A stretch of 64,000 nucleotides of DNA from Streptomyces sp. NBC_00513 (GTDB taxonomy: Bacteria > Actinomycetota > Actinomycetes > Streptomycetales > Streptomycetaceae): NCBI RefSeq assembly GCF_041431415.1, contig NZ_CP107845.1:6138001-6202000 (forward strand). The letters run 5' to 3'. The position numbers were made by a program, and so were the translations under genes. A model generated the notes under the pieces. The model worked only from the letters and a program-made list of their open reading frames with translations, had not been told where the DNA came from and searched no databases. Within the stretch, counting starts at the first letter, position 1, and each line of letters starts with the position of its first letter. This document shows positions 4,836 through 28,361 of this stretch, in pieces.

Positions 4836-4875
4836 GCCTAATTTCGGCGTGAACTCGACGTCAACAGTTTGTTGA
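4836..4875 (-). promoter_or_regulatory. katA promoter with overlapping second palindrome (TCAACA-N3-TGTTGA)
   Basis: Read on the minus strand, TTGACG (4859-4864), a 17-bp spacer and TTAGGC (4836-4841) form a housekeeping-type promoter. The perfect palindrome TCAACAGTTTGTTGA at 4861-4875 overlaps the -35. A nearly identical arrangement precedes the urate oxidation operon. Confidence 0.65.
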
Positions 4876-4998
4876 AAGAAAGAGTGTGGAGAGGAAATCC
4901 GGACGGTGCCGGCGCTTGGGCGCGACAGGACAGGTGTCAGCACCGGCACCATCCGGAAACTCAGGTCCCCCTGGGGGGAAGGGCGTTCGGATCCGTGA

Positions 4999-5898
4999 TC
5001 AGATCTGCGCGCCGGAGAGGCGCTCGACCGCGCGGAGCAGGGCGGAGTGGTCCAGGCCACCGTCACCCTGGGCGCGCAGCGAGGCGACGAGCTGGGCGAC
5101 GACCGCGCCGACCGGGAGGGCCGCACCCACATTGCGGGCGGCGTCGGTGACGATGCCCATGTCCTTGTGGTGCAGGTCGATCCGGAAGCCGGGCTTGAAG
5201 TCGCGGTTCAGGAAGTTGTCCTTCTTGCGCGTCAGCACCGTGGAGCCGGCCAGACCGCCGTTGAGAACGTCCAGGGCGGCGGTGAGGTTCACGCCGGACT
5301 TCTCCAGGAAGACGACGGCCTCGGCGCACGCCTGGATGTTCACCGCGACGATGAGCTGGTTGGCGGCCTTCACCGTCTGGCCGGAGCCGTGCGGGCCGCA
5401 CAGGACGATGGTCTTGCCGAGGGCCTCCAGGACCGGCAGGGCCTCGTCGAAGTCGGCCTGCTCGCCACCCACCATGATCGACAGCACGGCCTCGATGGCG
5501 CCGGCCTCGCCGCCGGACACCGGGGCGTCGATGACGCGGATGCCCTTCTCGGCGGCGTTCTTGGCGAGGTCGATCGAGGTCTGCGGGGTGATCGACGACA
5601 TGTCGATGATCAGCGCGCCGGACTTCGCGTTCTTCAGGATGCCGTTCTCGCCGTAGGCGATGGCCTCGACCTGCGGGGAGGCGGGCACCATCGTGATGAC
5701 GACGTCGGCGTCCTTGACGGCCTCGGCGATCGAGCCGGCCGCGGTGCCGCCGGCGGCGGCGAGGCGGTCCAGCTTGTCCTGCTCCAGGGTGAAGCCGGTG
5801 ACCGAGTAGCCGGCCTTCAGGAGGTTCTCGGCCATGGGGGAGCCCATGATGCCGAGACCGACCCAGGCGATCGACGGGAGGGCAGCGGGGTTGCTCAT
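4999..5898 (-). CDS. glxR: 2-hydroxy-3-oxopropionate (tartronate semialdehyde) reductase
   Basis: This 299-residue NAD(P)H enzyme would reduce tartronate semialdehyde to D-glycerate in the glyoxylate/allantoin branch. The Rossmann motif GLGIMGSPMAENL is at residues 14-26, the substrate motif DAPVSGG at 124-130, and the catalytic lysine of the beta-hydroxyacid dehydrogenase family is in SGQTVKAANQ (Lys177). Length is typical. It lies between katA and hyi, all on the minus strand. The 75-bp gap to hyi has no clear promoter, so hyi-glxR is likely one transcript. Paralogues such as 3-hydroxyisobutyrate dehydrogenase are similar; the neighbours decide the name. Confidence 0.92.
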   Translation of the reverse strand: MSNPAALPSIAWVGLGIMGSPMAENLLKAGYSVTGFTLEQDKLDRLAAAGGTAAGSIAEAVKDADVVITMVPASPQVEAIAYGENGILKNAKSGALIIDMSSITPQTSIDLAKNAAEKGIRVIDAPVSGGEAGAIEAVLSIMVGGEQADFDEALPVLEALGKTIVLCGPHGSGQTVKAANQLIVAVNIQACAEAVVFLEKSGVNLTAALDVLNGGLAGSTVLTRKKDNFLNRDFKPGFRIDLHHKDMGIVTDAARNVGAALPVGAVVAQLVASLRAQGDGGLDHSALLRAVERLSGAQI

Positions 5899-5973
5899 GA
5901 TGAGGGTCCTTCTCTTAATGCTTTGTACGAAAAGTGCGTGAGGTGCCTGGCTGATCGCCCGGACTTGGTCCGC

Positions 5974-6807
5974 CTACTTCGCGGCGCGGGCCTCGGCCGG
6001 CAGCCACGCGAAGGAGGCGGCGGCGTCGGCGGCCTTGTACTCCAGGCCTACGTAGCCCTCGTATCCGGCCTTCCTCAGCTGGTCGAGCAGCTCCTCCAGG
6101 GGCAGCTCGCCGGTGCCGGGGGCACCGCGTCCGGGCTTGTCCGCGATCTGGACGTGCCCGGTCTTGGCGGCGTACTTTTCGATGACCTCGGAGAGGTCCT
6201 CATCGTTCATCGCCAGGTGGTACAGGTCGAGGAGGAACTTGGCGTTGCCGAGGCCGGTGGCCTCGTTCACCTTGTCCACCACCTCGATGCCGGCCGGCGC
6301 GCTCACCAGGGGGTAGAGCGGCGACTCGGGCTTGTTGAGGGTCTCGATCAGGAGGATCGCGCCCACGCGGTCCGCGGCCCGGGCGGCCACGACCAGGTTC
6401 TCCAGGGCGAGCTCGTCCTGGACGGCCGGGTCGACGCCTTCCACGCGGTTTCCGTAGAGGGCGTTCAGCGCCTTGCAGCCGACCGAGGCCGCGAAGTCGG
6501 CGGCCACGTTGATGTTGGCGTTGAAGCGCTCCGACTCCTCACCGGGGACCGAGACCGCGCCGCGGTCGGGACCCGGCAATTGGCCGGCGTAGAAGTTCAG
6601 GCCCACCAACCGGGTGCCGGCGTCCTCAAGAGCCTTCTTGAGGGCGTCGAGCTCCGCCTGGGCGGGAGTGGGGGTCTCGATCCAGGGCCACCACAGCTCG
6701 ACCGCGGTGAAGCCCGCCGCGGCGGCGGCCGCGGGACGCTCCAGAAGCGGGAGTTCCGTGTAGAGGATCGAAAGGTTTACATCGAAGCGCTGGTCCGTGT
6801 ATCCCAT
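5974..6807 (-). CDS. hyi: Hydroxypyruvate isomerase
   Basis: This 277-residue TIM-barrel enzyme of the AP-endonuclease-2/xylose isomerase-like superfamily interconverts hydroxypyruvate and tartronate semialdehyde. The N-terminus (FDVNLSILYTELP) and the metal-site segments (LLIETLNKPESPLYPL and FLLDLYHLAMNDEDL) are those of Hyi. The ATG at 6807 is chosen because GGAAGGAG lies about 10 bases upstream; an upstream ATG in the same frame lies in operator sequence. The AllR-type palindrome at 6824-6838 overlaps this ribosome-binding site, so repressor binding would block both transcription and access to it. Confidence 0.93.
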   Translation of the reverse strand: MGYTDQRFDVNLSILYTELPLLERPAAAAAAGFTAVELWWPWIETPTPAQAELDALKKALEDAGTRLVGLNFYAGQLPGPDRGAVSVPGEESERFNANINVAADFAASVGCKALNALYGNRVEGVDPAVQDELALENLVVAARAADRVGAILLIETLNKPESPLYPLVSAPAGIEVVDKVNEATGLGNAKFLLDLYHLAMNDEDLSEVIEKYAAKTGHVQIADKPGRGAPGTGELPLEELLDQLRKAGYEGYVGLEYKAADAAASFAWLPAEARAAK

Positions 6808-6823
6808 GAGGGGTGTGCGCTCC

Positions 6824-6838
6824 TTCCGTATTGCGGAA
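6824..6838. promoter_or_regulatory. Predicted AllR operator at hyi (perfect palindrome)
   Basis: TTCCGTATTGCGGAA, TTCC-N7-GGAA, with CTTCCG/CGGAAG 6-bp arms. It overlaps the hyi ribosome-binding site. A weaker copy, TTCTGCTTGATGGAA, lies at 6845-6859, exactly 21 bp away (two helix turns). A -35-like TTGACA for hyi is at 6883-6888 on the minus strand. Confidence 0.7.
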
Positions 6839-6844
6839 GTTGTT

Positions 6845-6859
6845 TTCTGCTTGATGGAA
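6845..6859. promoter_or_regulatory. Secondary AllR-type half-degenerate site at hyi
   Basis: TTCTGCTTGATGGAA differs from the TTCC-N7-GGAA pattern at one base. It lies on the same helix face as the main site (21-bp centre-to-centre spacing), which would allow cooperative binding. Confidence 0.45.
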
Positions 6860-6932
6860 GACTGCATCGAGGTTCGCGTGGCTGTCAAGTGCGGACTGCC
6901 GAAACCTGCGGAGCGCGGGGTAGCTTGACCGC

Positions 6933-7184
6933 GTGCGATTGAGAGTGGAATTCACGACCGAGCCCTTCGATCTCGAAGAGGCCCCCGCCCATGCCGTGGC
7001 CGCTCGCGAGGTCATCCAGAAGGCGCGGCTCGACGCGGTGGACGTCGGCCCCTTCGGCAACACCGCCGAGGGCGGGTCCGAAGAGGTGCTCACCGCCGTT
7101 TCCGCGCTCCTGCGCGATGCGCTGGAGGCCGGAGCCACGCGCGTCTCGCTCCAGGTGAACGTGATCCGGGAGGAGACCCCGTGA
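6933..7184 (+). CDS. Small MTH1187/DUF77-like (thiamine-binding-type) protein
   Basis: This 83-residue ferredoxin-fold-like protein aligns by eye with the MTH1187/YkoF-type thiamine-binding family: a short beta start (RVEFTTEPF), then VAAREVIQKA, a GPFGNTAEGG turn, EEVLTAVSALLRDALEAGATRVSL, and a final strand. Ligand binding is not shown by sequence alone. The GTG start at 6933 is 7 bases after a TAGCTT -10 box, so the mRNA is probably leaderless. The stop overlaps the GTG of the next gene. It is transcribed away from hyi and towards the urate operon. I infer a co-expressed partner of the following HTH protein; the function is unknown. Confidence 0.75.
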   Translation: MRLRVEFTTEPFDLEEAPAHAVAAREVIQKARLDAVDVGPFGNTAEGGSEEVLTAVSALLRDALEAGATRVSLQVNVIREETP

Positions 7185-7564
7185 CCGAGCCCCGCGACCA
7201 CCCGTTCGTCACCGCGGTCAAGCCGCTGGTCGACGCCATCGGCGGCGAGCTGATGGATCCCTCCCTGGCGCAGCCCGACGACGTCGTGCTCACCTGGGAG
7301 GGTCAGGACCTGCTGGCCGTGCGCCTGCCCCAGCTGTCCGACTCGCTGGACCACATCCTGGCCGCGCTGGAGCGACGCCACGGCGTGCCCCTGGCCCGGC
7401 TCGACCGGAAGTCCAAGCAGGACGTGGTGCGCATATTGGAGGCGCGTGGCGCCTTCTCCGTGCGGCACGGGGTGGAAACGGTCGCGGGCGCCCTGGGGGT
7501 AAGCCGCTTCACGGTCTACAACTACCTGAACAGGGAAAACCCGAACAAGAACAGCCAGGAGTGA
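7181..7564 (+). CDS. HTH regulator with YheO-like (HTH_22-type) C-terminal domain
   Basis: This 127-residue protein starts at a GTG coupled to the previous stop. Residues about 80-120 (KQDVVRILEARGAFSVRHGVETVAGALGVSRFTVYNYLNRE) form a clear helix-turn-helix of the kind found at the C-terminus of YheO/DagR-like regulators, recognition helix SRFTVYNYL. The N-terminal 70 residues are a small unassigned domain that may sense a ligand. A terminator with a T-run follows at once, and the urate operon promoter starts beyond it. This gene is the nearest candidate for the factor that binds the TCAACA-N3-TGTTGA palindrome, but that is a hypothesis from position only. Confidence 0.75.
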   Translation: MTEPRDHPFVTAVKPLVDAIGGELMDPSLAQPDDVVLTWEGQDLLAVRLPQLSDSLDHILAALERRHGVPLARLDRKSKQDVVRILEARGAFSVRHGVETVAGALGVSRFTVYNYLNRENPNKNSQE

Positions 7565-7588
7565 ACGGCGTCTGACGCACGGTGACGA

Positions 7589-7621
7589 GCCGCCGCCCGA
7601 TTCACCCGGGCGGTGGCTTTT
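7589..7621 (+). terminator. Rho-independent terminator after the HTH gene
   Basis: An 11-bp stem (7589-7599 against 7607-7617, one G-T pair), a short loop, then TTTTG. It separates the two-gene regulatory unit from the urate operon. Confidence 0.8.
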
Positions 7622-7635
7622 GTGTACGCGAAGTT

Positions 7636-7675
7636 TCAACAAAGTGTTGACGCGGTGTTGTCGAGGGCGTTAGCT
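7636..7675 (+). promoter_or_regulatory. Urate operon promoter with palindrome TCAACAAAGTGTTGA
   Basis: TTGACG at 7647-7652, a 17-bp spacer and TTAGCT at 7670-7675. The perfect palindrome at 7636-7650 overlaps the -35, matching the katA promoter almost base for base (TTTCAACAAA, then G or C, then TGTTGACG). No TTCC-N7-GGAA site is present here. Confidence 0.65.
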
Positions 7676-7717
7676 ATGCGCAGCCCGTCAAGCAACAACA
7701 GGCCACGGAGGCCTACC

Positions 7718-8224
7718 GTGACTTCGAGTCCGACCCCGGGTCTCACCCGGTTCAACGCCTTGGACGACAGCGCGGCCACGGCCGAACTGCACGAGGTCTG
7801 CGCCAGCTCGGCGTGGGGGAGCAAGCTGCTCGCCCAGCGCCCCTTCACCACCGCCGACGCCCTGTTCTCGGCCAACGAGTCCGCCATGGCGGAGCTCACC
7901 GCCGAGGACCTGGCCGAGGCGATGGGGGGCCACGCGCCGATCGGCCGGCCGAAGCCGGGAGACCCGACCTCCGCCCGCGAGCAGCGTGGCATGGCCGGTG
8001 CCTCGGAGGACCTCAAGAACGAGCTCCTCGAACTGAACCTGGCGTACCAGGAGAAGTTCGGCCACGTCTTCCTCATCTGCGCCACCGGTGCGACCGGTGA
8101 GTTCATGCGGGACGCGGTCAGGATCCGGATCGACAACTCGCCGGAAGCGGAGCGGGAAATCGCCCGCGGCGAGCTCGTCAAGATCAACCGGATCCGCCTG
8201 ACCCGCCTCGCAGAAGGAGAGTGA
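7718..8224 (+). CDS. uraD: 2-oxo-4-hydroxy-4-carboxy-5-ureidoimidazoline (OHCU) decarboxylase
   Basis: This 168-residue enzyme catalyses the last step from urate to S-allantoin, decarboxylating OHCU. The catalytic His is in GGHAPIG (His72), followed by the conserved Glu-Gln pair (AREQRGM, residues 86-92), the KFGHVFLICATG strand, and the RIDN motif containing the substrate Arg/Asn near residues 140-145. The GTG at 7718 has GGAGG 5 bases upstream; an in-frame ATG further upstream has no ribosome-binding site and lies in the promoter. It is the first gene of the uraD-uraH-urate oxidase operon. Confidence 0.94.
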   Translation: MTSSPTPGLTRFNALDDSAATAELHEVCASSAWGSKLLAQRPFTTADALFSANESAMAELTAEDLAEAMGGHAPIGRPKPGDPTSAREQRGMAGASEDLKNELLELNLAYQEKFGHVFLICATGATGEFMRDAVRIRIDNSPEAEREIARGELVKINRIRLTRLAEGE

Positions 8225-8231
8225 GCACGCC

Positions 8232-8636
8232 ATGAGCACCGAGACCACCGCGTCGGTGTCCACGCACATCCTGGACACCAGCATCGGCAAGCCCGCCGAG
8301 GGCGTCGCCATCTCCCTGTCGGCCCGTACGGGTCCGGGCGGCGAGTGGGCGGCCCTGGGCGGCTCCGCCACCGATGCGGACGGGCGTTGCAAGGACCTGC
8401 CGGCCCTGCCGGAGGGCACCACACACGTGCGTCTCGACTTCGAGACCGAGACGTACTTCCTGAACAAGCACAGTTCGAAGAAGCAAGCCGAGGCGCAGCA
8501 GGACGCCCCCCGCGTAAGGGACAGCGGTGCGTTCTTCCCGGAGGTCACCATCACCTTTGCGGTGAACCCGGGCGAGCATTACCACGTACCGCTGCTGCTC
8601 AACCCGTTCGGCTACTCCGTTTACCGAGGGAGCTAG
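8232..8636 (+). CDS. uraH: 5-hydroxyisourate hydrolase (transthyretin-like)
   Basis: This 134-residue enzyme hydrolyses 5-hydroxyisourate to OHCU. The N-terminal STHILD motif (active-site His12), the central RLDFETETYF region and the C-terminal YRGS signature of HIU hydrolases are all present; YRGS separates the enzyme from true transthyretins. The ATG follows AAGGAGAG and lies 8 bp after the uraD stop. It is translated as part of the urate operon. It is slightly longer than many homologues because of a Lys/Gln-rich insert around residues 78-90. Confidence 0.95.
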   Translation: MSTETTASVSTHILDTSIGKPAEGVAISLSARTGPGGEWAALGGSATDADGRCKDLPALPEGTTHVRLDFETETYFLNKHSSKKQAEAQQDAPRVRDSGAFFPEVTITFAVNPGEHYHVPLLLNPFGYSVYRGS

Positions 8637-8641
8637 CAGAC

Positions 8642-9565
8642 ATGCCCACGATTCTCGGCCAGAATCAGTACGGGAAAGCAGAGAACCGCGTAGTCAAGAT
8701 CACGCGGGACGGCGACACCCACCACATCAAGGACCTCAACGTCTCGGTCGCCCTCTCCGGCGACATGGACGACGTCCACTACTCCGGCTCGAACGCCAAC
8801 GTCCTGCCGACGGACACCACCAAGAACACGGTGTACGCGTTCGCCAAGGAGTACGGCATCGAGTCCGCCGAGCAGTTCGGCATCCACCTGGCGCGTTGGT
8901 TCGTCAACAGCCAGGAGCCGATCCAGCGCGCGCGCATCCGGATCGAGGAGTACTCCTGGTCCCGGATCGCCACCTCCGACGCCAACTCCAAGTTCATCGG
9001 GTCGGACGAGGTCAACCACTCGTTCGTCCGTGAGGGCATGGAGACCCGCGTCACCCAGATCACGTACGACGGCACCAACTGGGAGGTCATCTCCGGCCTC
9101 AAGGACCTCGTCGTCATGAACTCCACGAACTCCGAGTTCTGGGGTTACGTGAAGGACAAGTACACGACCCTGAAGGAGGCCTACGACCGCATCCTGGCCA
9201 CCCAGGTGTCGGCTCGCTGGCGCTTCAACTGGTCGGACGACGAGCAGCGGATGCCCAACTGGGAGAAGTCCTACGCCGAGACCCGCAAGCACATGCTTCA
9301 GGCCTTCGCGGAGACCTACTCCCTGTCGCTCCAGCAGACCCTGTACCAGATGGGTTCGCGCATCATCAACCACCGTTCGGAGATCGACGAGGTCCGCTTC
9401 TCGCTCCCGAACAAGCACCACTTCCTCGTCGACCTGGAGCCCTTCGGCCTCAAGAACGACAACGAGGTCTACTTCGCCGCGGACCGCCCCTACGGTCTGA
9501 TCGAGGCGACGGTCCTCCGCGACGGCGTTGACGCCCGTATCCCCGTGGACATGACCAACCTCTGA
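8642..9565 (+). CDS. pucL: Urate oxidase (cofactor-free uricase)
   Basis: This 307-residue enzyme uses O2 to convert urate to 5-hydroxyisourate and H2O2, with no cofactor. It shows two tandem T-fold halves. In the first, Lys13-region KAENRVVK and the TDTTKNTVYAFAK segment supply the catalytic Lys/Thr pair; the second half has ARWRFNWSD and SLQQTLYQMGSRIINH with the substrate-binding Arg and Gln. Length is normal for bacterial uricases. The start lies 5 bp after the uraH stop. A hairpin at 9578-9604 follows. Its peroxide product explains the catalase gene nearby. Confidence 0.96.
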   Translation: MPTILGQNQYGKAENRVVKITRDGDTHHIKDLNVSVALSGDMDDVHYSGSNANVLPTDTTKNTVYAFAKEYGIESAEQFGIHLARWFVNSQEPIQRARIRIEEYSWSRIATSDANSKFIGSDEVNHSFVREGMETRVTQITYDGTNWEVISGLKDLVVMNSTNSEFWGYVKDKYTTLKEAYDRILATQVSARWRFNWSDDEQRMPNWEKSYAETRKHMLQAFAETYSLSLQQTLYQMGSRIINHRSEIDEVRFSLPNKHHFLVDLEPFGLKNDNEVYFAADRPYGLIEATVLRDGVDARIPVDMTNL

Positions 9566-9604: not shown

Positions 9605-9755
9605 TCGGCGCGACACTCTTCAACTTCCTTAATCGGCACCCGGACGCAACACACGGGGCGGCAGTACTGTCAGCTGTCAAGGCCCCCGGCTCCGGCACTC
9701 AAATCCCCTGGGTTTTGCCGTGCCCGTACCGCCACTGAAAGCACGAGGAAGTCCC

Positions 9756-11159
9756 ATGGCAGCATCGGCAGCCCAGGACAGCGCCGTCGAGCGCATCGTC
9801 ATCGAGAACTGTGCCATCGCGACCGTTGACGCGAACGACACCGAGTACGCCTCGGGTCACGTGGTCGTCGCCGGCAACAAGATCGAGTCGATCGGTGCGG
9901 GCAAAGCCCCCGAGAACCTCGCCAACGTGGTCCGCCGCATCGACGGCACGGGTCACCTCGTCACCCCGGGTCTGGTCAACACGCACCACCACTTCTACCA
10001 GTGGATCACCCGTGGTCTGGCCACCGACCACAACCTCTTCAACTGGCTCGTCGCCCTGTACCCGACGTGGGCGCGCATCGACGAGCAGATGACGTACACG
10101 GCCGCCCAGGGCTCCCTGGCGATGATGGCCAAGGGCGGCGTCACCACCGCCATGGACCACCACTACGTCTTCCCCAAGGGCTCCGGCGACCTCTCCGGCT
10201 CGATCATCCGCGCCGCGTCCGAGATGGGCGTCCGCTTCACCCTGGCCCGCGGATCGATGGACCGCAGCGTCAAGGACGGCGGCCTGCCGCCGGACCACGC
10301 CGTCGAGACCCTCGAAGGCGCGCTCGCCGACACCGAGGCGACCGTCAAGAAGCACCACGACCACTCCTTCGACGCGATGACCCAGGTCGCCGTCGCCCCG
10401 TGCTCCCCCTTCTCGGTCTCCACCGAGCTGCTGAAGCAGGGCGCCGAGCTGGCCCGCCGGCTGAACGTGCGCCTGCACACGCACGGCTCGGAGACCGTCG
10501 AGGAGGAGCAGTTCTGCAAGGAACTGTTCGGCATGGGCCCGACCGACTACTTCGAGTCGACCGGCTGGCTCGGCGAGGACGTGTGGATGGCGCACAGCGT
10601 CCACATGAACGACTCCGACATCGCCGCGTTCGCCCGCACCAAGACCGGTGTGGCGCACTGCCCGTCCTCCAACGCCCGTCTGGCCGCCGGCATCGCCCGC
10701 GTGCCCGACATGCTGGCCGCCGGCGTACCGGTCGGCCTCGGCGTGGACGGCACCGCCTCCAACGAGTCCGGTGAGCTGCACACCGAGCTGCGCAACGCGC
10801 TGCTCATCAACCGCCTGAACCCCGTCCACCGCGAGCGCGCACTGAACGCGCGCCAGGCCCTGCGCCTGGGTACGTACGGCGGCGCCCAGGTCCTCGGCCG
10901 CGCCGACAACATCGGTTCGCTGGAGGTGGGCAAGCTCGCCGACCTGGTGATGTGGAACGTCAGCACGCTGGCGCACTCCTCCATCGCCGACCCGGTCACC
11001 GCGCTCGTCTTCGGCGCGGCCGCACCGGTCACCCTCTCGCTGGTCAACGGCAAGCAGATCGTCGAGAACAACCGACTGCTCTTCGCCGACGAGGACGCGA
11101 TCGCCGTGTCCACGCGGGAAGAGGCCCAGCGCCTCGCGCGGCTCTCCGCGCAGGCCTGA
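9756..11159 (+). CDS. 8-oxoguanine deaminase (amidohydrolase superfamily)
   Basis: This 467-residue enzyme is predicted to deaminate 8-oxoguanine to urate, feeding the adjacent urate pathway. The metal site is in NTHHHFYQWITRG (His77, His79), with further ligands or acid residues in RLHTHGSE (His243), MAHSVH (His280) and GLGVDGTASNE (Asp331). The HHHFYQ pattern and the length match characterised 8-oxoguanine deaminases better than guanine or cytosine deaminases, but an isoguanine or other guanine-type substrate is possible. The ATG at 9756 has AGGAAG upstream. A 190-bp gap and hairpin separate it from the uricase operon, so it probably has its own promoter. Confidence 0.85.
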   Translation: MAASAAQDSAVERIVIENCAIATVDANDTEYASGHVVVAGNKIESIGAGKAPENLANVVRRIDGTGHLVTPGLVNTHHHFYQWITRGLATDHNLFNWLVALYPTWARIDEQMTYTAAQGSLAMMAKGGVTTAMDHHYVFPKGSGDLSGSIIRAASEMGVRFTLARGSMDRSVKDGGLPPDHAVETLEGALADTEATVKKHHDHSFDAMTQVAVAPCSPFSVSTELLKQGAELARRLNVRLHTHGSETVEEEQFCKELFGMGPTDYFESTGWLGEDVWMAHSVHMNDSDIAAFARTKTGVAHCPSSNARLAAGIARVPDMLAAGVPVGLGVDGTASNESGELHTELRNALLINRLNPVHRERALNARQALRLGTYGGAQVLGRADNIGSLEVGKLADLVMWNVSTLAHSSIADPVTALVFGAAAPVTLSLVNGKQIVENNRLLFADEDAIAVSTREEAQRLARLSAQA

Positions 11160-11531
11160 TCCCCCGGAGTCCGGTCGGGGGGGACGGCCCTCGACCGGCG
11201 GCCGCGGACCCGAGCGGGGTCCGCGGCAGCCGTTCCCGGGAAGCGCCCGAGGTCAACACCGAGGGCGCCCCCGGGGGCGGTGACTCGTGACACTCTCACG
11301 GCGCGCACCACCATCGGCACGCCACCGCGTCACGCCACGGCCCGCGGGCTCCCACGCACCGCGGCATTCCGTGGGAACGACTCGGGCGAATCGTTTCCGC
11401 ACCCCGTGCGTCCCTCACACCCCCTCGGGACGGCACCTCCACAACTTCACAACGGCTCGACTAGCACCGCTTTCGCACCACCTCCCAGACACCCACGTCC
11501 CTGCCGACGTGTTACCCGACCGGAGGAAGCC
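11160..11531. other. Gap between deaminase and purine permease genes
   Basis: About 370 bp. It holds the hairpin at 11201-11227 and presumably the permease promoter. No TTCC-N7-GGAA or TCAACA palindrome is present. The permease reading frame is open through most of this stretch, but without a ribosome-binding site before 11532. Confidence 0.6.
11201..11227 (+). terminator. Hairpin after the deaminase gene
   Basis: A perfect 11-bp stem GCCGCGGACCC/GGGTCCGCGGC with a 5-base loop, 42 bp after the stop codon. Confidence 0.6.
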
Positions 11532-12926
11532 GTGGCCGCAACGCCCAGGTTTCGCAAAGATGCAGTCGCAGTACCGGAGGAGACGCACCCGGTCGACGAG
11601 ACCCTGCCTCCGCTGAAAATGTTCACGAGCGGTCTCCAACACGTGGCCGCCATGTACGCGGGTGTCGTCGCCCCGCCCATGATCGTCGGACCCGCCGTCG
11701 GTCTCTCCGCCACCGAGACGGCCTTCCTGATGGGCGCCTCGCTCTTCACCGCCGGCCTCGCCACCCTGCTCCAGACCCTCGGGTTCTGGAAGATCGGCGC
11801 CAAACTCCCCTTCGTCAACGGCGTCTCCTTCGCCGGTGTCACCCCGATGATCGCCATCGGCAAGGGGGAGGGGGTCGACGCCATCCCCGTCATCTTCGGT
11901 GCGATCATCGTCGCCGGACTCCTCGGCTTCCTGGCCGCCCCCTACTTCGGGAAGCTCGTCCGCTTCTTCCCACCCGTCGTCACCGGCACGGTCATCACCC
12001 TGATCGGCGTCTCACTGCTCCCGGTGGCGTTCAACTGGTCGCAGGGCGGCAACAGCACCGCCTCCGACTACGGATCGATGCAGAACATCGGCATGGCCGC
12101 CCTCACCCTGGCGATCGTGCTGGTCATGCGGAAGTTCCTGCGGGGCTTCCTCCAGCAGATATCCATCCTGCTCGGCCTGGTCGTGGGCACCCTCATCGCG
12201 ATCCCGCTGCACATGACGAACTTCGACGCCATCCGCGACGCGGACATCGTCGGCTTCCCCACCCCGTTCCACTTCGGCGCCCCGCAGTTCCAGGTCGCGG
12301 CCATCATCTCCATGTGCATCGTGATGCTGGTCTGCATGACCGAGTCCACCGCCGACATCCTGGCCCTCGGCAAGATCGTGGGCCGTCCGGCGGACGCGAA
12401 GACCATCGAGGGCGGCCTGCGCGCCGACACCCTCGGCAGCGCCGTCAGCCCGCTGTTCAACGGCTTCATGTGCAGTGCCTTCGCCCAGAACATCGGACTC
12501 GTCGCGATGACCAAGGTGCGCAGCCGGTTCGTCGTCGCGGCCGGCGGCGGCATCCTGATCCTGCTCGGCCTGTGTCCGGTGGCGGCCTCCGTGATCGGCG
12601 TGGTGCCGCTGCCCGTGCTCGGCGGCGCCGGCATCGTCCTCTTCGGCTCGGTCGCCGCCAGCGGCATCCAGACCCTGGCGGGCGCCGCCATGGAGAAGGG
12701 CGAGAACGCCCTGATCGTGGCCGCCTCGGTCGGCATCGGCCTGATACCGATCGCCGCCCCCGGCTTCTACCACGCCTTCCCGAAGGACCTGTTGGTCGTC
12801 CTCGACTCCGGCATCAGCACCGGCTGCGTCGTGGCGATCCTGCTCAACCTGGCCTTCAACCACCTCGGCGCCAAGAAGAAGGACGAGGCCGCACAGGCCA
12901 CGTCGGAACCGGCGTTCGTGCACTGA
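11532..12926 (+). CDS. NCS2-family xanthine/urate permease
   Basis: This 464-residue integral membrane protein has about 14 hydrophobic segments and imports a purine base, most likely xanthine or urate, by cation symport. Family marks are LQHVAAMYAGVVAPPMI at the start, SFAGVTPMIAIG, ESTADILALGKI (with the conserved Glu of TM8) and the NCS2 signature QNIGLVAMTK. The QNxG form with this context favours xanthine/urate over uracil. The GTG at 11532 is chosen because GGAGGAAG lies 5 bases upstream. A large inverted repeat after the stop separates it from the convergent AsnC-type gene. Confidence 0.93.
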   Translation: MAATPRFRKDAVAVPEETHPVDETLPPLKMFTSGLQHVAAMYAGVVAPPMIVGPAVGLSATETAFLMGASLFTAGLATLLQTLGFWKIGAKLPFVNGVSFAGVTPMIAIGKGEGVDAIPVIFGAIIVAGLLGFLAAPYFGKLVRFFPPVVTGTVITLIGVSLLPVAFNWSQGGNSTASDYGSMQNIGMAALTLAIVLVMRKFLRGFLQQISILLGLVVGTLIAIPLHMTNFDAIRDADIVGFPTPFHFGAPQFQVAAIISMCIVMLVCMTESTADILALGKIVGRPADAKTIEGGLRADTLGSAVSPLFNGFMCSAFAQNIGLVAMTKVRSRFVVAAGGGILILLGLCPVAASVIGVVPLPVLGGAGIVLFGSVAASGIQTLAGAAMEKGENALIVAASVGIGLIPIAAPGFYHAFPKDLLVVLDSGISTGCVVAILLNLAFNHLGAKKKDEAAQATSEPAFVH

Positions 12927-13085: not shown

Positions 13086-14141
13086 TCAGGCCGCGCGCGT
13101 CGGCTCCGTCCAGATGTCCGGGAGCACCGTGCGCACGCGTCGCCCCTCCTGGTCCAACTCCTGCGCCTCCGACTTGCGCACGTGGAGCGCCACCGCCGAG
13201 TCGGTGACCCGCATCGCCGGCAACCGGCGCGAGAGGTCCGAGGTGTAGTGGGCCAGCTCCGCGATCGTGCGCAGCCGCGCACTGATCATGAAGTTCCAGG
13301 GCCCGCTGACGGACATGCAGGTCCGGGTCTCGCGTAACCCGATCGCCGCCGCCGCGCAGTCGGCCACCTCGTGCTCGGGCACCTCCGCCCACAAGGTCGC
13401 CGACACCGGCCAGCCCGAGACCCCCGAGGCCATCGCGCAGCTGTAGCGCAGGCCCTGCCCCGCCTCCAGCCGGCCCAGCCGGCGACGCACCGTGGACTCG
13501 CTCATGCCGGTCTCCCGCGCCAGCGAGGCCACGCTGCGTCGCGCGTCCGAAGCCAGCGCCAGCACCAACGGCCGGTCCTCCTCGGTCATGCTCGACGGCG
13601 CCGGGCCGGCGAGGGCCGCCGACGACGTGGAGCGGCGGGTCCGCCCGGTCAGCTGATCGATCTGGAGGGGGGACAGTTGATCCAGGCGCCACCGGTCGGG
13701 GGCGCTGTGCACCGCCGTCACCATCGACGACCGGGTCGCGCCCACCCCGGGGATCCGCTGGACGCGGAACGACAGGTAGCGGTACAGCGTGTGCAGGTTC
13801 GGGACGGCCACGAACGCCAACAGGTCACGGGCGCCCGTGGTGTGCTGCACGCCGAGCGTGTGCGGGTCCCCGACCAGCGCCGCGCCGACCGCCGGGGCGG
13901 TGCCGGCGGCGCAGGTCACCTCCACCCAGGCCATGCAGGGCGACTGGTTGCCCGTACGCAGCCCCAGCCCCGATATCCAGGCCTCACCGGCCCCCGTCAT
14001 GCGCTCCCAGCGGCGGGCCAGCGTGTCGGGGCGGGCGCCGAGCACCGGCCCCAACCGCTCCCAGCTCGCCCGGGGCGCGAGCTGGAGTGCGTGGACGAGC
14101 GCCCGGTCGGTGTCGTCCACGGCGGAAATGGCCGCGTGCAT
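13086..14141 (-). CDS. Tandem Lrp/AsnC-family transcriptional regulator
   Basis: This 351-residue protein contains two AsnC-like units in one chain. The first winged helix is at about residues 8-45 (DDTDRALVHALQLAPRASWERLG), with a RAM-like effector domain at about 70-140. The second winged helix is at about 185-225 (DRPLVLALASDARRSVASLARETGMSESTVRRRL), with a second RAM-like domain to about 320. The second HTH is much closer to consensus. The ATG at 14141 has GGGGAAGG upstream. It is divergent from the AfsR-like ATPase gene, so the 128-bp gap probably serves both. The amino acid sensed is unknown; a lysine-type signal is conceivable given the saccharopine-dehydrogenase-like gene nearby. Confidence 0.88.
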   Translation of the reverse strand: MHAAISAVDDTDRALVHALQLAPRASWERLGPVLGARPDTLARRWERMTGAGEAWISGLGLRTGNQSPCMAWVEVTCAAGTAPAVGAALVGDPHTLGVQHTTGARDLLAFVAVPNLHTLYRYLSFRVQRIPGVGATRSSMVTAVHSAPDRWRLDQLSPLQIDQLTGRTRRSTSSAALAGPAPSSMTEEDRPLVLALASDARRSVASLARETGMSESTVRRRLGRLEAGQGLRYSCAMASGVSGWPVSATLWAEVPEHEVADCAAAAIGLRETRTCMSVSGPWNFMISARLRTIAELAHYTSDLSRRLPAMRVTDSAVALHVRKSEAQELDQEGRRVRTVLPDIWTEPTRAA

Positions 14142-14269
14142 ACCTTCCCCCTGGTGGTTCTCCCGGTCGCGGGTCGGAAGACCGGACTTTCCGCAGATCA
14201 TCTCTCTTTGTGCACCGAACCGATGAATCCGACGGTGGTGCGCGAGTACAGGACGTCGCGGGAGGACGC

Positions 14270-19165: not shown

Positions 19166-20785
19166 TCAGCCGGTGAGCTGGTCGTACGCGGGGAGGGTGA
19201 GGAAGTCCGCGTAATCGGCGTCGAGGGAGACCTGGAGCAGGAGGTCGTGGGCCTGCTGCCACTTGCCGGAGGTGAAGGCCTCCTCGCCGACCTCGGCGCG
19301 GATGGCGGCCAGTTCCTCGGTCGCGATCTTGCGGGTCAGGTCGGCCGTGGCCGTCTCGCCGTTCTCGAAGACGACCCCGGCGTTGATCCACTGCCAGATC
19401 TGCGAGCGGGAGATCTCGGCGGTGGCCGCGTCCTCCATCAGGCCGAAGATGCCGACGGCGCCCAGGCCGCGCAGCCACGCCTCGATGTAACGGATGCCGA
19501 CCTGGACGGCGTTGCGCAGGCCCTCGTAGGTCGGCTTGGCGTCCAGCGAGTCGATGGCGATCAGCTCGCCCGCGGCCACCGAGACGTCCTCGCGCAGCCG
19601 GTCCTTCTGGTTGGGCTTGTCGCCGAGCACCGCGTCGAAGGAGGCCATCGCGATCGGGACCAGGTCGGGGTGGGCGACCCAGGAGCCGTCGAAGCCGTCG
19701 CCGGCCTCGCGGTCCTTGTCGGCCTTGACCTTCTCGAACGCGACCTTGTTGACCTCGGCGTCCTTGCGGGACGGGATGAAGGCCGCCATGCCGCCGATGG
19801 CGTGCGCGCCGCGCTTGTGGCAGGTCCTGACCAGCAGTTCGGTGTACGCCCGCATGAAGGGGGCGGTCATCGTCACCGCGTTGCGGTCCGGCAGGACGAA
19901 CTTCTGGCCGCCGTCACGGAAGTTCTTCACGATGGAGAAGAGGTAGTCCCAACGGCCCGCGTTGAGGCCGGCCGCGTGGTCCTTGAGCTCGAAGAGGATC
20001 TCTTCCATCTCGTAGGCCGCGGTGATCGTCTCGATCAGGACGGTCGCGCGGACGGTGCCCTGCGGGATCCCGACGTAGTCCTGGGCGAAGACGAAGATGT
20101 CGTTCCAGAGGCGGGCCTCAAGGTGCGACTCCGTCTTCGGCAGGTAGAAGTAGGGGCCCTTGCCGAGGTCGATGAGGCGCTGGGCGTTGTGGAAGAAGTA
20201 CAGGCCGAAGTCGACGAGCGAACCGGAGGCCGGGCCGCCCTCGAAGCGCAGGTGGCGCTCCTGGAGGTGCCAGCCGCGCGGCCGCATCACGACGGTGGCG
20301 AGTTCGTCGGCGGACTTCAGCGCGTACGCCTTGCCGGTGCGGGGGTCGGTGAAGTCGATGCGACGCTCGTAGGCGTCGATCAGGTTCAGCTGGCCGAGGA
20401 CGACGTTCTCCCAGGTGGGAGCGGAGGCGTCCTCGAAGTCGGCGAGCCAGACCTTGGCGCCCGAGTTCAGGGCGTTGATGGTCATCTTGCGGTCCGTCGG
20501 ACCGGTGATCTCCACGCGGCGGTCGTTCAGCGCGGCCGGGGCCGGCGCGACCTTCCAGTCTCCCTCGCGGACCTGTGCGGTGTCCGGGAGGAAGTCGAGG
20601 GTGGAGGTCCGGGCGATCTCGGCGCGCCGCTCGCCGCGTCGGGCGAGGAGCTCCGCGCGGCGTGGGGCGAACCGCCGGTGGAGCTCGGCCACGAAGGCGA
20701 GGGCCGCTTCGGTGAGGACCTCGTCCTGCCGGGGCAGGGGCTCGGCGTCGACGATGGCCAGCGGGGACGGCGCTGGTGCGGACAT
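19166..20785 (-). CDS. aceB: Malate synthase A
   Basis: This 539-residue enzyme condenses glyoxylate with acetyl-CoA to malate. Characteristic segments are the VWLADFEDA block, VVMRPRGWHLQERH (catalytic Arg), ATVLIETITAAYEMEEIL (metal Glu), FSIVKNFRD, and the late catalytic Asp in GLMEDAATAEISRSQIWQW. The length is that of the A isoform (about 530), not the G isoform (about 720). The ATG at 20785 has GAAGGAG eight bases upstream. Its promoter carries both palindromes found at other allantoin genes, so it most likely serves glyoxylate released from purines, not only acetate growth. Confidence 0.96.
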   Translation of the reverse strand: MSAPAPSPLAIVDAEPLPRQDEVLTEAALAFVAELHRRFAPRRAELLARRGERRAEIARTSTLDFLPDTAQVREGDWKVAPAPAALNDRRVEITGPTDRKMTINALNSGAKVWLADFEDASAPTWENVVLGQLNLIDAYERRIDFTDPRTGKAYALKSADELATVVMRPRGWHLQERHLRFEGGPASGSLVDFGLYFFHNAQRLIDLGKGPYFYLPKTESHLEARLWNDIFVFAQDYVGIPQGTVRATVLIETITAAYEMEEILFELKDHAAGLNAGRWDYLFSIVKNFRDGGQKFVLPDRNAVTMTAPFMRAYTELLVRTCHKRGAHAIGGMAAFIPSRKDAEVNKVAFEKVKADKDREAGDGFDGSWVAHPDLVPIAMASFDAVLGDKPNQKDRLREDVSVAAGELIAIDSLDAKPTYEGLRNAVQVGIRYIEAWLRGLGAVGIFGLMEDAATAEISRSQIWQWINAGVVFENGETATADLTRKIATEELAAIRAEVGEEAFTSGKWQQAHDLLLQVSLDADYADFLTLPAYDQLTG

Positions 20786-20927: not shown

Positions 20928-20967
20928 ATAGTAATTTCCTCATGGTGGAAGTTCAATGGTTTGTTGA
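20928..20967 (-). promoter_or_regulatory. aceB promoter with two overlapping operators
   Basis: On the minus strand, TTGAAC (20951-20956), exactly 17 bp, then TACTAT (20928-20933). The spacer is filled by the AllR-type site TTCCTCATGGTGGAA (forward, 20936-20950). The second element, TCAATGGTTTGTTGA (20953-20967), overlaps the -35. A repressor bound here would block RNA polymerase directly. Confidence 0.7.
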
Positions 20968-21965: not shown

Positions 21966-23453
21966 ATGGCGAACGGTCCAGTGGTCCACCCGGCGGACAG
22001 AACCATCGGCAGCCGACGCCTCGCCGCGCTGCTGCCCGCCGAGGTACGGGCACGCCCCGGCTACCGCTCCCTCGCCGACGCCCTGCGCACCCTGATCCTC
22101 GACGGCCGCATCGCCCTGCGCGTCCGGCTGCCCGCCGAACGCGAACTCGCCGCTGCGGTCGGTGCGAGCCGGGCCACCGTCACCGGCGCCTACGACCTGC
22201 TGCGCGAGAGCGGCTACGCACGCAGCCGGCGCGGCTCCGGGACCTGGACCGAGCTGCCCGAGGGCCACGGGCCCGTCGCCGCTCTCCCGCTCGTCGGCGC
22301 CGGCGGGTACCGCCCGGACGGCGATCCCGGCATCGACCTGGCCATCGCCGCGATGGGCGCCCCCGAGGGCAGCCTGGAAGCGGCCCTGGCCTGGGCCGCG
22401 CCCCGCCTGCCCTCAGTGGCACGGCACCCCGGCTACCACCCGTTCGGCCTGCCGGACCTGCGCACGGCCGTGGCGGAACGCTTCACCCGGCGCGGACTGC
22501 CCACCCGCCCCGAGCAGATCCTCGTCACGGCGGGCGCCCAGCAGGCCTTCGCCCTGGTGGTGAGCCTGCTGTGCGGGGCGGGGGACCGGGTCGTCACCGA
22601 GAACCCGACCTACGCCAACGCGCTCGACGCGTTGCGGCACGCCCGACTGCGCACCGCGTCGATCGCCGTCTCCGATGCGGGCTGGGACATGGAGATCGCG
22701 GAGTCCACGCTGCGTCAGACCGTGCCGAGACTGGCGTACGTGATCCCCGACTTCCACAACCCGACGGGCTCCCTGATGCCCGAGGAGGACCGGCAACGCC
22801 TGCTGGAGGCCACCCGGCGCACCGGGACCTGGCTGGTGGTCGACGAGACCGTCGCGGACATCGCCCTCGACGTGCCCGCACCCGCCCCGCTCGCCTCCCT
22901 CGCGCCGCGCGGGGGAGCGGACCACGTCGTGACCATCGGGTCGCTGAGCAAGACCCACTGGGGCGGGCTGCGCGTCGGCTGGATCCGCGCCTCCGCCAAG
23001 ATGATCGCCGAGCTGACGGCCGTGCGGGTCGCGGCCGACATGACCGGCTCGGTCCTGGACCAACTCGTCGCGCTGCCGCTGCTGGAAGGGCTCGACGCGT
23101 CGCTCCCGACACGGCTCGGACAGCTGCGCGAGCAACGCGAGGCCCTCGTCCGTTCCCTCGAACGACACACCCCGGAATGGTCCTGGGAGCTGCCGCCGGG
23201 GGGCCTCTCGCTCTGGGTGGACCTCGGGGAACCGGTCAGCTCCGCGCTCTCCGAACGGGCCGCGGCCGCCGGAGTCCACATCGGGCGCGGCGCCCGCTTC
23301 GGAGTGGACCCGGGAACCTTCGAACACCGCCTGCGCATCCCGTACACGCTCCCGGCGGACCGCCTCGACGAGGGCGTCCGCCGGCTCGCGGCCGCCTTCC
23401 ACGACGGGGTGCCGCTGCCCCCGTCGGTGGAACGGCCGTACTGGGTCGCGTGA
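21966..23453 (+). CDS. MocR-family regulator (GntR HTH fused to class I aminotransferase)
   Basis: This 495-residue protein begins with a GntR winged helix (about residues 30-100: YRSLADALRTLILDGRI, then LPAERELAAAVGASRATVTGAYDLL). It continues as a fold-type I aminotransferase with LVTAGAQQAFALV, an IPDFHNPTG cofactor segment, and the PLP lysine in TIGSLSKTHWGGLRVGW. Such fusions sense PLP or an amino-donor compound, and many control B6, GABA or taurine genes. The ATG at 21966 follows GGGGGAGG. Likely autoregulated through the repeats upstream. The controlled pathway is not evident. Confidence 0.92.
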   Translation: MANGPVVHPADRTIGSRRLAALLPAEVRARPGYRSLADALRTLILDGRIALRVRLPAERELAAAVGASRATVTGAYDLLRESGYARSRRGSGTWTELPEGHGPVAALPLVGAGGYRPDGDPGIDLAIAAMGAPEGSLEAALAWAAPRLPSVARHPGYHPFGLPDLRTAVAERFTRRGLPTRPEQILVTAGAQQAFALVVSLLCGAGDRVVTENPTYANALDALRHARLRTASIAVSDAGWDMEIAESTLRQTVPRLAYVIPDFHNPTGSLMPEEDRQRLLEATRRTGTWLVVDETVADIALDVPAPAPLASLAPRGGADHVVTIGSLSKTHWGGLRVGWIRASAKMIAELTAVRVAADMTGSVLDQLVALPLLEGLDASLPTRLGQLREQREALVRSLERHTPEWSWELPPGGLSLWVDLGEPVSSALSERAAAAGVHIGRGARFGVDPGTFEHRLRIPYTLPADRLDEGVRRLAAAFHDGVPLPPSVERPYWVA

Positions 23454-23474: not shown

Positions 23475-24104
23475 CTACGGGGTGCGGATCAGCCGGCGGG
23501 TGGCCGCCGCGGCGACCGCCGCCGTGCGGGAGTCGACGCCGAGCTTCGCGTAGACGTGCACCAGGTGGGACTTGACCGTGGCCTGGCTGAGGAAGAGCCG
23601 CTTCGAGATCTGCTGGTTCGACAATCCGTCCGCGACCAGCTGGAGCACCTCCAGCTCCCGCTTCGTCAGCGCCTCCGCCGGCATCCGCATCCGGTCCATC
23701 AGCCGCAACGCCACCGCCGGGGCCAGCGCCGACTGGCCGGCCGCCGCGGTGCGGACCGCCGCCGCCAGCTCCTCCGGCGGGGCGTCCTTGAGCAGGTAGC
23801 CCGAGGCGCCCGCCTCCACGGCGGCCAGGATGTTCGCGTCCGTGTCGTACGTGGTCAGCACCAGCACCCGGGGTGCCTCCGGCCGGGCCGTGATCAGGGC
23901 CGTGGCCTGCGAACCGTGCATACCGGGCCCGAACTGGAGGTCCATCAGGACCACGTCCACCCCCGCCGAGGCGGCCAGCTCCACCGCCCGCTCGGCGGTG
24001 GCGGCCTCCGCGACGACCGCGAAGTCCGCCTCGGTGTCCAGCACCGCGCGCAGCCCCGCGCGGACCACCGGGTGGTCGTCGGCGAGCAGCAGCCGGATGG
24101 TCAT
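23475..24104 (-). CDS. NarL/LuxR-type response regulator
   Basis: This 209-residue regulator has a receiver domain (DDHP near residue 8; phosphoacceptor Asp in VVLMDLQF near 54; switch Thr in LVLTTYD; Lys in GYLLKDAP) and a C-terminal LuxR HTH (LTKRELEVLQLVADGLSNQQISKRLFLSQATVKSHL). The start ATG overlaps the stop of the kinase gene, so the pair is translationally coupled. The probable target is the divergent ABC exporter beyond the kinase. Confidence 0.94.
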   Translation of the reverse strand: MTIRLLLADDHPVVRAGLRAVLDTEADFAVVAEAATAERAVELAASAGVDVVLMDLQFGPGMHGSQATALITARPEAPRVLVLTTYDTDANILAAVEAGASGYLLKDAPPEELAAAVRTAAAGQSALAPAVALRLMDRMRMPAEALTKRELEVLQLVADGLSNQQISKRLFLSQATVKSHLVHVYAKLGVDSRTAAVAAAATRRLIRTP

Positions 24105-25285: not shown

Positions 25286-25419
25286 GGCCCGACCAGCGTA
25301 AGTGGGGGTCCGCCGGCCCCGGTCAACCAAAAGATTGATGTACGGGGCGTCCCTTCGACACGAGGATCCCTACCGTGGCGCGATGCCGTGTGTCCACGGT
25401 GAACACCAGGGTGGGGGAC

Positions 25420-26505: not shown

Positions 26506-27185
26506 CCCTGCTCGTCCACGACGTCACGCTCACCTACCCGGACGGCGACGGCCGGCTCACCGCCCTCGACGCGGTCGCCCTGGAGGCGCCGGCGGGCACC
26601 CTGACCGCCGTCATCGGGCCTTCGGGCTCCGGCAAGTCCAGCCTGCTCGCGGTCGCCGCCACCCTGGTCACCCCGGACGCGGGCCGGGTCGTCGTCGCCG
26701 GCCGGGACACGGCCCGGCTCAGCGCCGCGCAGAAGTCCGCGCTGCGCCGAGAGGAGATCGGCATCGTCTTCCAGCAGCCCAACCTGCTCGCCTCGCTCAC
26801 CGCCGCCGAGCAGCTCCAGGTGATGGCCCACCTGTCGGGGCGGCCGGCCAAGCGGCTGCGCCGGCGGGCCCTGGACCTGCTGGACGCGGTGGGCATGGCC
26901 GACAAGGCCGACAAGCGCCCGCACCAGCTCTCGGGCGGGCAGCGCCAGCGCGTCAACATCGCCCGCGCCCTGATGAACGAGCCCGCCGTGCTGCTGGTGG
27001 ACGAGCCGACCAGCGCCCTGGACCACGAGCGGGGGGCGGCCGTACTGGACCTCCTGGTCACCCTCACCCGCGAGCGGTCCACCGCCACGGTGCTGGTCAC
27101 CCACGACCACGCCCACCTGGAGCGCGTGGACCGCACGATGACGATGACGGACGGCCGCCTCACGGAGACGGCCCCGGCCCGCTGA
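26502..27185 (+). CDS. ABC exporter ATP-binding protein (LolD/MacB type)
   Basis: This 227-residue ATPase is the partner of the preceding FtsX-type permease. Walker A is GPSGSGKSS near residues 38-46, the Q-loop FQQPNLLASLT is typical of LolD/MacB, the signature is LSGGQRQR, Walker B is [12 protein letters not shown], and the H-loop is LVTHD. The ATG overlaps the permease stop. A strong terminator follows five bases after the stop. Confidence 0.94.
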   Translation: MTLLVHDVTLTYPDGDGRLTALDAVALEAPAGTLTAVIGPSGSGKSSLLAVAATLVTPDAGRVVVAGRDTARLSAAQKSALRREEIGIVFQQPNLLASLTAAEQLQVMAHLSGRPAKRLRRRALDLLDAVGMADKADKRPHQLSGGQRQRVNIARALMNEPAVLLVDEPTSALDHERGAAVLDLLVTLTRERSTATVLVTHDHAHLERVDRTMTMTDGRLTETAPAR

Positions 27186-27189
27186 CGTG

Positions 27190-27237
27190 CGAAGGCCCCG
27201 GCCCGCCCCCTTCGAGAAGGGCGGTCCGGGGCCTTCG
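27190..27237. terminator. Strong bidirectional terminator
   Basis: A long hairpin, CGAAGGCCCCGG near 27190 against CCGGGGCCTTCG ending at 27237, with inner pairing GCCC/GGGC and a CGAG loop. It lies between the ABC exporter and the convergent allR. Confidence 0.85.
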
Positions 27238-27248
27238 CGTACGGGTCC

Positions 27249-28052
27249 CTACGCGGGATTCTGGCTCTGCAGGGCCACCGACAGCTCGGCGGCGATCCCC
27301 TGGAGGATCGGCACGATCGAGTCCGTCAGCGCCTCGGTCACCCGGCCCGCGGGGCCCGAGATGGAGATCGCGGCGGCGGTCGGCGAGTTCGGCACCGACA
27401 CGGCCAGGCAGCGGACTCCTATCTCCTGCTCGTTGTCGTCGACCGCGTAGCCCACCTTGCGGACCTGCTCCAGGGCGTCCAGGAAGCCCTCGGGCGTGGT
27501 GATGGTCTTCTCGGTCGCGGCCGGCATCCCGGTGCGCGCCAGCAGCGCGCGCACCTCGTCCGCGGGGGTGTACGCGAGCAGCGCCTTGCCCACGCCCGTG
27601 GAGTGCGGCAGCACCCGGCGGCCCACCTCCGTGAACATGCGCATGGAGTGCTTGGACGGCACCTGGGCGACGTAGACGATCTCGTCCCCGTCGAGCAGGG
27701 CCATGTTCGCGGTCTCGCCGGTCTCCTCGACGAGCCGTGCGAGGTAGGGACGGGCCCACGTGCCCAGGAGGCGGGAGGCTGATTCGCCGAGACGGATCAG
27801 CCGGGGGCCGAGGGCGTACCGTCGGTTGGGCTGCTGCCGGACGTAACCGCACGCCACGAGGGTGCGCATGAGGCGATGGATGGTGGGCAGCGGCAGACCA
27901 CTGGCGGCGGAGAGCTCGCTGAGGCCGACCTCGCCCCCGGCATCGGCCATGCGTTCGAGCAGATCGAAGGCGCGCTCAAGGGACTGGACGCCACCCCCGG
28001 CGGCGGTGGGCTTGGCGGAAGCGTCGGTGGTGCTGGCGCTGGACGTCGGCAC
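27249..28052 (-). CDS. allR: IclR-family repressor of allantoin genes
   Basis: This 267-residue regulator has an IclR winged helix at about residues 20-80 (VQSLERAFDLLERMAD, then GLSELSAASGLPLPTIHRLMRTLVACGYV) and a C-terminal effector domain (LVEETGETANMALLDGDEIVYVAQV; LPHSTGVGKALLAY; GYAVDDNEQEIGVRCLAV). It is divergent from allB-alc, the usual AllR position. The GTG at 28052 has GAAAGGA eight bases upstream; a TTG at 28082 is the alternative but sits at the likely transcription start, 6 bases after a TAGGCT box. Glyoxylate or allantoate-type effectors are known for AllR proteins. The TTCC-N7-GGAA palindromes are its probable targets. Confidence 0.9.
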   Translation of the reverse strand: MPTSSASTTDASAKPTAAGGGVQSLERAFDLLERMADAGGEVGLSELSAASGLPLPTIHRLMRTLVACGYVRQQPNRRYALGPRLIRLGESASRLLGTWARPYLARLVEETGETANMALLDGDEIVYVAQVPSKHSMRMFTEVGRRVLPHSTGVGKALLAYTPADEVRALLARTGMPAATEKTITTPEGFLDALEQVRKVGYAVDDNEQEIGVRCLAVSVPNSPTAAAISISGPAGRVTEALTDSIVPILQGIAAELSVALQSQNPA

Positions 28053-28237
28053 GGGCGCGGTCCTTTCGGTGCTGGCAGGCAAGGAATCAGCCTACCGGTC
28101 GGTCGGCGTCGGCCCTAGAGCCGGGGCACTGCCGTCCCCGCCGGTCAGAGGGGGTTTGTCCTGGTGGTGGACGTCCTCGGAAGTCAACCGCGCGACTCCC
28201 GATGGCGGTAGCTACATTCTGGATAGTGAAATCTTAA

Positions 28238-28252
28238 TTCCATCCTGTGGAA
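28238..28252. promoter_or_regulatory. Predicted AllR operator at allR (perfect palindrome)
   Basis: TTCCATCCTGTGGAA, perfect TTCC-N7-GGAA. It covers the -35 position of the minus-strand promoter whose -10 is CACTAT (28223-28228), which fits autorepression of allR. Confidence 0.65.
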
Positions 28253-28330
28253 ACATCCAATTGTGCCGTGCGTGGCTGGGTGGTCCGTCCGGGCGCTCTT
28301 GACTGGCCCCGGATCGGGGTGAAGACTCCG

Positions 28331-28361
28331 TCAACAGAACGTTGAATTTCGCTCTGTGGAA
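28331..28361. promoter_or_regulatory. Paired operators in front of allB
   Basis: TCAACAGAACGTTGA at 28331-28345 (one mismatch in the arms), followed one base later by TTTCGCTCTGTGGAA at 28347-28361 (TTTC in place of TTCC). They lie from the predicted transcription start to just before the ribosome-binding site GGGGAGG. Confidence 0.6.

Follow-up and report, generated by a model that had tools for sequence, protein, structure and literature searches.

The 64,000-nucleotide (nt) stretch of Streptomyces sp. NBC_00513 analysed here (contig NZ_CP107845.1, positions 6,138,001 to 6,202,000; hereafter the window) carries the palindrome TCAACA-N3-TGTTGA at the promoters of the catalase gene katA, the urate operon beginning with uraD, the malate synthase gene aceB and the allantoinase gene allB. 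The question raised by this locus is which protein reads the palindrome. Our reading, to which we give a probability of about 0.7, is that the palindrome is the operator of a small HTH_22 protein encoded just ahead of the urate operon, which would be produced together with a UPF0045-like neighbour and would act as a repressor until a purine-derived signal appears.

The palindrome and its conservation

The original prediction had listed four elements with their coordinates and quality, perfect at katA and the urate operon, with one mismatch at allB and two at aceB, and all of these agreed with the sequence (Table 1). The agreement of 18 of 19 bases between katA, read on the minus strand, and the urate promoter was also correct (TTTCAACAAA[C/G]TGTTGACG). 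When up to three mismatches were allowed, 33 matches were counted in the window against a mean of 4.35 and a maximum of 13 in shuffled sequence, the weak ones lying mostly away from the pathway promoters. The TCAACA arms gave two perfect matches in the window and 59 other arms of equal base composition gave none altogether; at one mismatch or fewer, the count was three compared with a mean of 0.017 for these controls. The whole genome (8.6 Mb) contained four perfect palindromes and 23 at up to one mismatch, and the reversed control pattern yielded 0 and 6, respectively. The perfect sites were those at katA and uraD, one at the promoter of a urease gamma-subunit gene and one at a cyclophilin-like gene near a cydA-like gene, the last two names being assigned from the look of the sequences. 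The palindrome is thus confirmed, at a frequency that chance does not approach. The copies at allB and aceB are weak within this one genome, and their support comes from conservation.

Conservation was followed in 80 named loci, kept out of 391 loci encoding a relative of the HTH_22 protein (79 from Streptomyces and one from an 'Actinobacteria bacterium'). A perfect palindrome was present downstream of the regulator gene, at uraD, in all 80 of them, between +430 and +627 in 79 cases and at +2293 in the remaining one. The katA site was found with at most one mismatch in every one of the 61 loci in which the katA start was located, the remaining 19 being not countable. In 28 Streptomyces genomes, the allB site was detected at up to one mismatch in all and the aceB site at up to two mismatches in 26, and two control palindromes searched in the same genomes reached at best three mismatches at allB and two, once, at aceB. 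As the flanks at allB were poorly conserved, the element there stands out; the whole core promoter of aceB was conserved, and this case is therefore weaker. The absence of the element from orthologous promoters had been named beforehand as an outcome that would speak against the proposal, but the element was present at the uraD, katA, allB and aceB orthologues.

The overlap with a TTGACG -35 that had been reported for katA and the urate operon holds, with the arrangements TTGACG-18-TAGGCT and TTGACG-18-TAGCTA, respectively, and the right arm overlapped the -35 of aceB too (TTGAAC-17-TACTAT). These three pairs were detected with a loosened -10 pattern. The same search gave no hexamer pair overlapping the palindrome at allB, where a promoter-like TTGAC-N16..19-AGACT stopped 3-11 nt ahead of it in 19 of the 28 Streptomyces genomes, and thus the element at allB probably lies over the start region. 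The urate operon had been described as carrying this element only; indeed, no TGGAAA/TTTCCA-type AllR-like element was found in 7560-7740 at up to three mismatches. It is very improbable that the element is only a promoter feature, with the right arm serving as the -35 and the left arm arising by chance, or that it is AllR's site. The right arm does hold the -35 TTGA at three promoters, but the left arm is as well conserved as the right, allB lacks the overlap, and the E. coli AllR motif is printed as KTTGGAAWAWTWTTCCAAC in the part of PMC8222616 consulted.

Placement on the -35 or the start region would suit a repressor better than an activator. If the HTH_22 protein acted as an activator, it would hold polymerase at the overlapped -35; the centre of the site is close to the position generally known for class II activators, and the -35 overlap alone does not decide between the two modes. 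The well-spaced -35/-10 pairs and the different position of the element at allB argue against activation, which we regard as unlikely. A relative also points the same way: the YheO-like protein Cj1387c of C. jejuni appears repressor-like, as its mutant is described in the accessible part of PMC4519771 as making more of the adjacent Cj1388. Repression is, on this arrangement of promoter sequences, more likely than activation.

The candidate regulator and its partner gene

The gene ending 71 nt before the urate element encodes a protein which scored 72.8 bits against the Pfam model of HTH_22 (curated cut-off, 29.6) and hence belongs to this family, and it was the sole PF13309 match found in the genome. 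PAS_6 was not matched in it at E<=0.001. Its predicted fold (mean predicted local distance difference test score, pLDDT, 84) has a small helix-and-hairpin part at the N terminus, followed by a C-terminal helix-turn-helix ending in the predicted recognition helix, SRFTVYNYL (residues 109-117). Direct binding of the palindrome by this protein is likely. The original prediction had supposed a second transcription factor that would act with AllR and possibly respond to urate or nitrogen. This reading is partly borne out: there is strong support for a factor in addition to AllR. The specific regulator candidate, its coupled partner gene, the repressor-like placement and the lineage-dependent extra sites (ureABC and a nucleobase permease) go beyond what had been proposed. 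A literature search reaching few subscription papers found no description of this regulator, and neither the palindrome nor these genes turned up under the terms searched in the accessible parts of PMC11538686 and PMC10717218.

The linkage between regulator and site was seen in several genome samples. When 296 Streptomyces were drawn evenly, 284 of them had the regulator. Another 296 genomes, drawn across the class, included 31 Streptomyces, of which 28 had a close orthologue, with the site inside the same locus in 26 of the 28. In two genomes in which uraD lies kilobases away from the regulator (G086 and G262), the site sits at uraD, having moved along with it. Outside Streptomyces, the order in G291 was the gene pair, a perfect site and uraD-uraH-uox, and in G042 and G290 a perfect site was followed by uox. 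In Tsukamurella tyrosinosolvens the pair is divergent from uraD-uraH-pucL, and a perfect site lies in the roughly 114 bp that separate them. In seven genomes outside Streptomyces that have uraD and no regulator orthologue, about 300 bp upstream of uraD contained no element at up to three mismatches.

The small UPF0045/Thiamine_BP-like gene was located directly upstream of the regulator gene in all 80 named loci, overlapping it by 4 nt in 77 and by 1 nt in two, with one start unplaced. In a second family, all 14 loci with the short regulator had the same neighbour, as did G290 and Tsukamurella; a search of G042 at E<=1e-4 gave no match to it. The protein from the window reached 23.5 bits against PF01910, slightly below the cut-off of 24.9 (the match begins at 6939), and the Tsukamurella relative exceeded the cut-off with 38.8 bits. 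With regard to the ferredoxin-like beta-alpha-beta-beta-alpha-beta fold of this family, the structure was predicted with moderate confidence (mean pLDDT 68), and its best structural matches included UPF0045, tied with shell and PII-like proteins. As the two genes are coupled and the PAS domain is missing from the regulator, our guess is that the partner is the sensor.

Recognition helix, extra sites and the proposed mechanism

PAS-type HTH_22 genes with a nearby palindrome shared the helix form [ST]R[FY]T[VIL]YN. At L315, on Rhodococcus jostii pRHL1, four copies occurred within 200 bp (3951-4149; one at one mismatch and three at two) in the gap ahead of an amino-acid-permease-like gene, about 0.8 kb beyond the PAS-HTH_22 gene. 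Further PAS-type genes with sites were those of G283 (0 mismatches), R. erythropolis pLRE138 (1) and the gammaproteobacterium Chimaeribacter arupi (two sites at 1). PAS-type genes with the helices SRAT, SRAS, SRVT and others had no nearby site at up to one mismatch. As this rule was post hoc, it was put to the test in a new family draw comprising 251 genomes, which contained 25 HTH_22 matches above the cut-off, 20 of them in the helix class. Sites at one mismatch or fewer accompanied 18 of the 20 versus none of the five others, and 15 of 17 versus none of five after removal of three previously examined loci (p = 0.0008); control palindromes gave three matches per 1000 locus searches. This result flatters the rule, since 13 of the 15 positives belonged to the short urate type and a single genus, probably Tsukamurella, supplied 12 of the 14 urate-type loci in the draw. 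When PAS-type genes were pooled, including the loci that had suggested the rule, the site was found in 6 of 10 of the helix class and in 0 of 29 others.

Two linked ideas follow as a tentative proposal, for which we see somewhat less than an even chance: HTH_22 proteins with the [ST]R[FY]T[VIL]YN helix would read TCAACA-N3-TGTTGA across phyla whatever the pathway, and the actinobacterial branch without PAS would form, with a UPF0045 protein of ligand-binding type encoded in an overlapping pair with it, a two-part regulator of urate breakdown and the protective catalase.

Perfect or near-perfect sites also occurred at other genes. The site in the urease promoter (G000:C1:1521540-1521554; L001 1501-1515) lies 62 nt ahead of the gamma-subunit gene, and its 15-mer is that of uraD on the opposite strand. 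Outside the window, a one-mismatch site directly preceded an NCS2-type uracil-xanthine permease gene (L012 1501-1515). Occurrences of TCAACAGGCTGTTGA or its complement inside a MarR-family-like coding sequence at four loci (L134, L141, L147 and L305) were taken as coding sequence.

Several observations weigh against the proposed regulator. Its orthologue was undetected in 12 of the 296 Streptomyces and in G254. Two of these genomes, both drafts, retain sites: G466 (140 contigs) has a perfect one at uraD and one with two mismatches at allB, and G401 (950 contigs) has a perfect site 44 nt ahead of its allB match. The other 11 say little because allB gave no match at E<=1e-60 and no uraD match exceeded 41% identity; no element was found ahead of the weak uraD matches where such matches exist. 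The absence test gave the regulator no support and counted slightly against it. In orthologue-positive genomes outside Streptomyces, allB had no site in six of six, where the gene may sit inside a longer operon, and in Streptomyces no site was found ahead of the regulator's own gene pair. The perfect ureA site occurred in 2 of 16 orthologue-positive genomes (G000 and G152) and also in G195, outside those 16; urease was rejected as a core member on account of this lineage specificity, and regulon membership is, as the cases of ureA and allB indicate, not fixed across genomes. Perfect sites beside the start of the cyclophilin-like gene next to the cydA-like gene, at nine loci (L002 1501-1515 and eight others), may be read by a different factor. 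Of the four PAS-type loci with the right helix that were new in the fresh draw, only two had the site (L326 and L328, not L324 and L327). The sites kept in G466 and G401 and those beside cydA would fit an unlinked transcription factor that reads the palindrome, with the HTH_22 gene as a mere neighbour. We consider this quite unlikely, as the linkage persists in several genera despite different gene orders and sites also accompany HTH_22 genes outside urate clusters.

Returning to the HTH_22 protein as a repressor, from the sites, their conservation, the gene linkage, the promoter overlap and the correlation between helix and site we infer direct binding by a dimer and repression and, as guesses, an interaction with the partner and an inducer. 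The protein would be produced together with its UPF0045/Thiamine_BP-like neighbour, and in its dimer one SRFTVYNYLN recognition helix would face each of the two TGTTGA half-sites. When bound, the dimer would mask the -35 at three promoters (uraD, katA and aceB) and, at allB, the start region, excluding RNA polymerase. The repressor would be released by a signal derived from purines, either urate or an intermediate close to it; this signal may be bound by the UPF0045 partner, since the regulator is without the PAS sensor of its relatives. Release would switch on urate oxidase and the hydrogen-peroxide-removing catalase together, a pairing that makes sense because urate oxidase generates hydrogen peroxide. 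AllR would form a second control layer at allB and aceB. If this mechanism is correct, a specific regulator and its operator can be assigned to the urate part of purine degradation in Streptomyces and its relatives, and there is an explanation for why urate oxidase and catalase are controlled together. A regulator family on which little work exists would then have a DNA code, and UPF0045 proteins might serve a transcription factor as sensor subunits encoded separately from it.

Genes of the window and comparison with known systems

The features discussed above are collected in Table 1. The genes uraH and urate oxidase were named by sequence resemblance, consistent with the annotated Tsukamurella genes. 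The AllR-like protein reached no NCBIfam AllR cut-off. Other genes of the window include one for an 8-oxoguanine deaminase (9720-11159; NCBIfam PRK08203, 628.7 bits), which follows urate oxidase and adjoins a xanthine permease gene (11280-12926). An Lrp/AsnC-type protein (13086-14201) near the purine permease has two matched stretches each for the AsnC helix-turn-helix and ligand-binding models, and a MocR-like regulator (21966-23453; NCBIfam MocR_like_YczR, 577 bits) is encoded between aceB and allB.

Table 1. Positions of the genes and putative operators in the window.
Feature	Position	Strand	Details
katA, catalase	3322..4827	-	start may be internal
Putative operator, katA	4861..4875		perfect palindrome; -35 TTGACG 4859-4864, -10 TAGGCT 4835-4840, both minus strand
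UPF0045/Thiamine_BP-like small protein gene	6933..7184	+	4-nt overlap with regulator gene; start read from sequence
Candidate regulator	7181..7564	+	127 amino acids; C-terminal HTH_22 (PF13309), Pfam E 2.4e-20
Putative operator, urate operon	7636..7650		perfect palindrome; -35 TTGACG 7647-7652, -10-like TAGCTA 7671-7676
Urate operon start	7718..9565	+	uraD 7718-8224, uraH 8232-8636, urate oxidase about 8639-9565
aceB, malate synthase	19166..20785	-	name by sequence recognition
Putative degenerate operator, aceB	20953..20967		2 mismatches; -35 TTGAAC 20951-20956, -10 TACTAT 20928-20933, both minus strand
AllR-like IclR-family regulator	27249..28082	-	PF01614 and PF09339 above cut-off
Putative operator, allB	28331..28345		1 mismatch; 3 nt past AGACT of putative promoter TTGACT 28299-28304 / AAGACT 28322-28327
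allB, allantoinase	28380..29723	+	start read from sequence; name by sequence recognition

Two known systems act on the same genes or pathway. AllR, of the IclR family, controls this pathway, and an AllR-like gene is present in the window; the TCAACA-N3-TGTTGA arms differ from the GGAA/TTCC palindrome given for E. coli AllR in the part of PMC8222616 consulted, and on that basis the element is not an AllR operator. HbpS-SenS-SenR has been reported to lower the S. coelicolor urate genes hpxQTO (SCO6209-6211) under oxidative stress, but the site predicted upstream of SCO6209, CCAGCCGCCGTCCGGT, is unrelated to the palindrome, which also falls outside the SenR operators (CCGGGCCGCGTCCCGT-like) when compared with the sites listed in the accessible part of PMC4991794.

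Among the closest known systems are YheO-type regulators, which combine PAS_6 (PF08348) with HTH_22 (PF13309), as in E. coli YheO and C. jejuni Cj1387c. P. aeruginosa DauR and DguR are also of this type. E. coli YheO differs in its helix, SKHTVYLYI, and the 12 kb around yheO contained no palindrome match at up to two mismatches. The protein studied here shares with the YheO type the same C-terminal HTH_22, and several PAS-type members of the same helix class have the same palindrome nearby. While relatives such as those at L315, L319 and L322 carry PAS_6, the protein here, 127 amino acids long, gave no match to PAS_6, and its gene is coupled to one for a UPF0045 protein. Compared with the known UPF0045/Thiamine_BP proteins MTH1187, YBL001c and TM0486, the partner is distinguished by being encoded as an overlapping pair with a DNA-binding protein.

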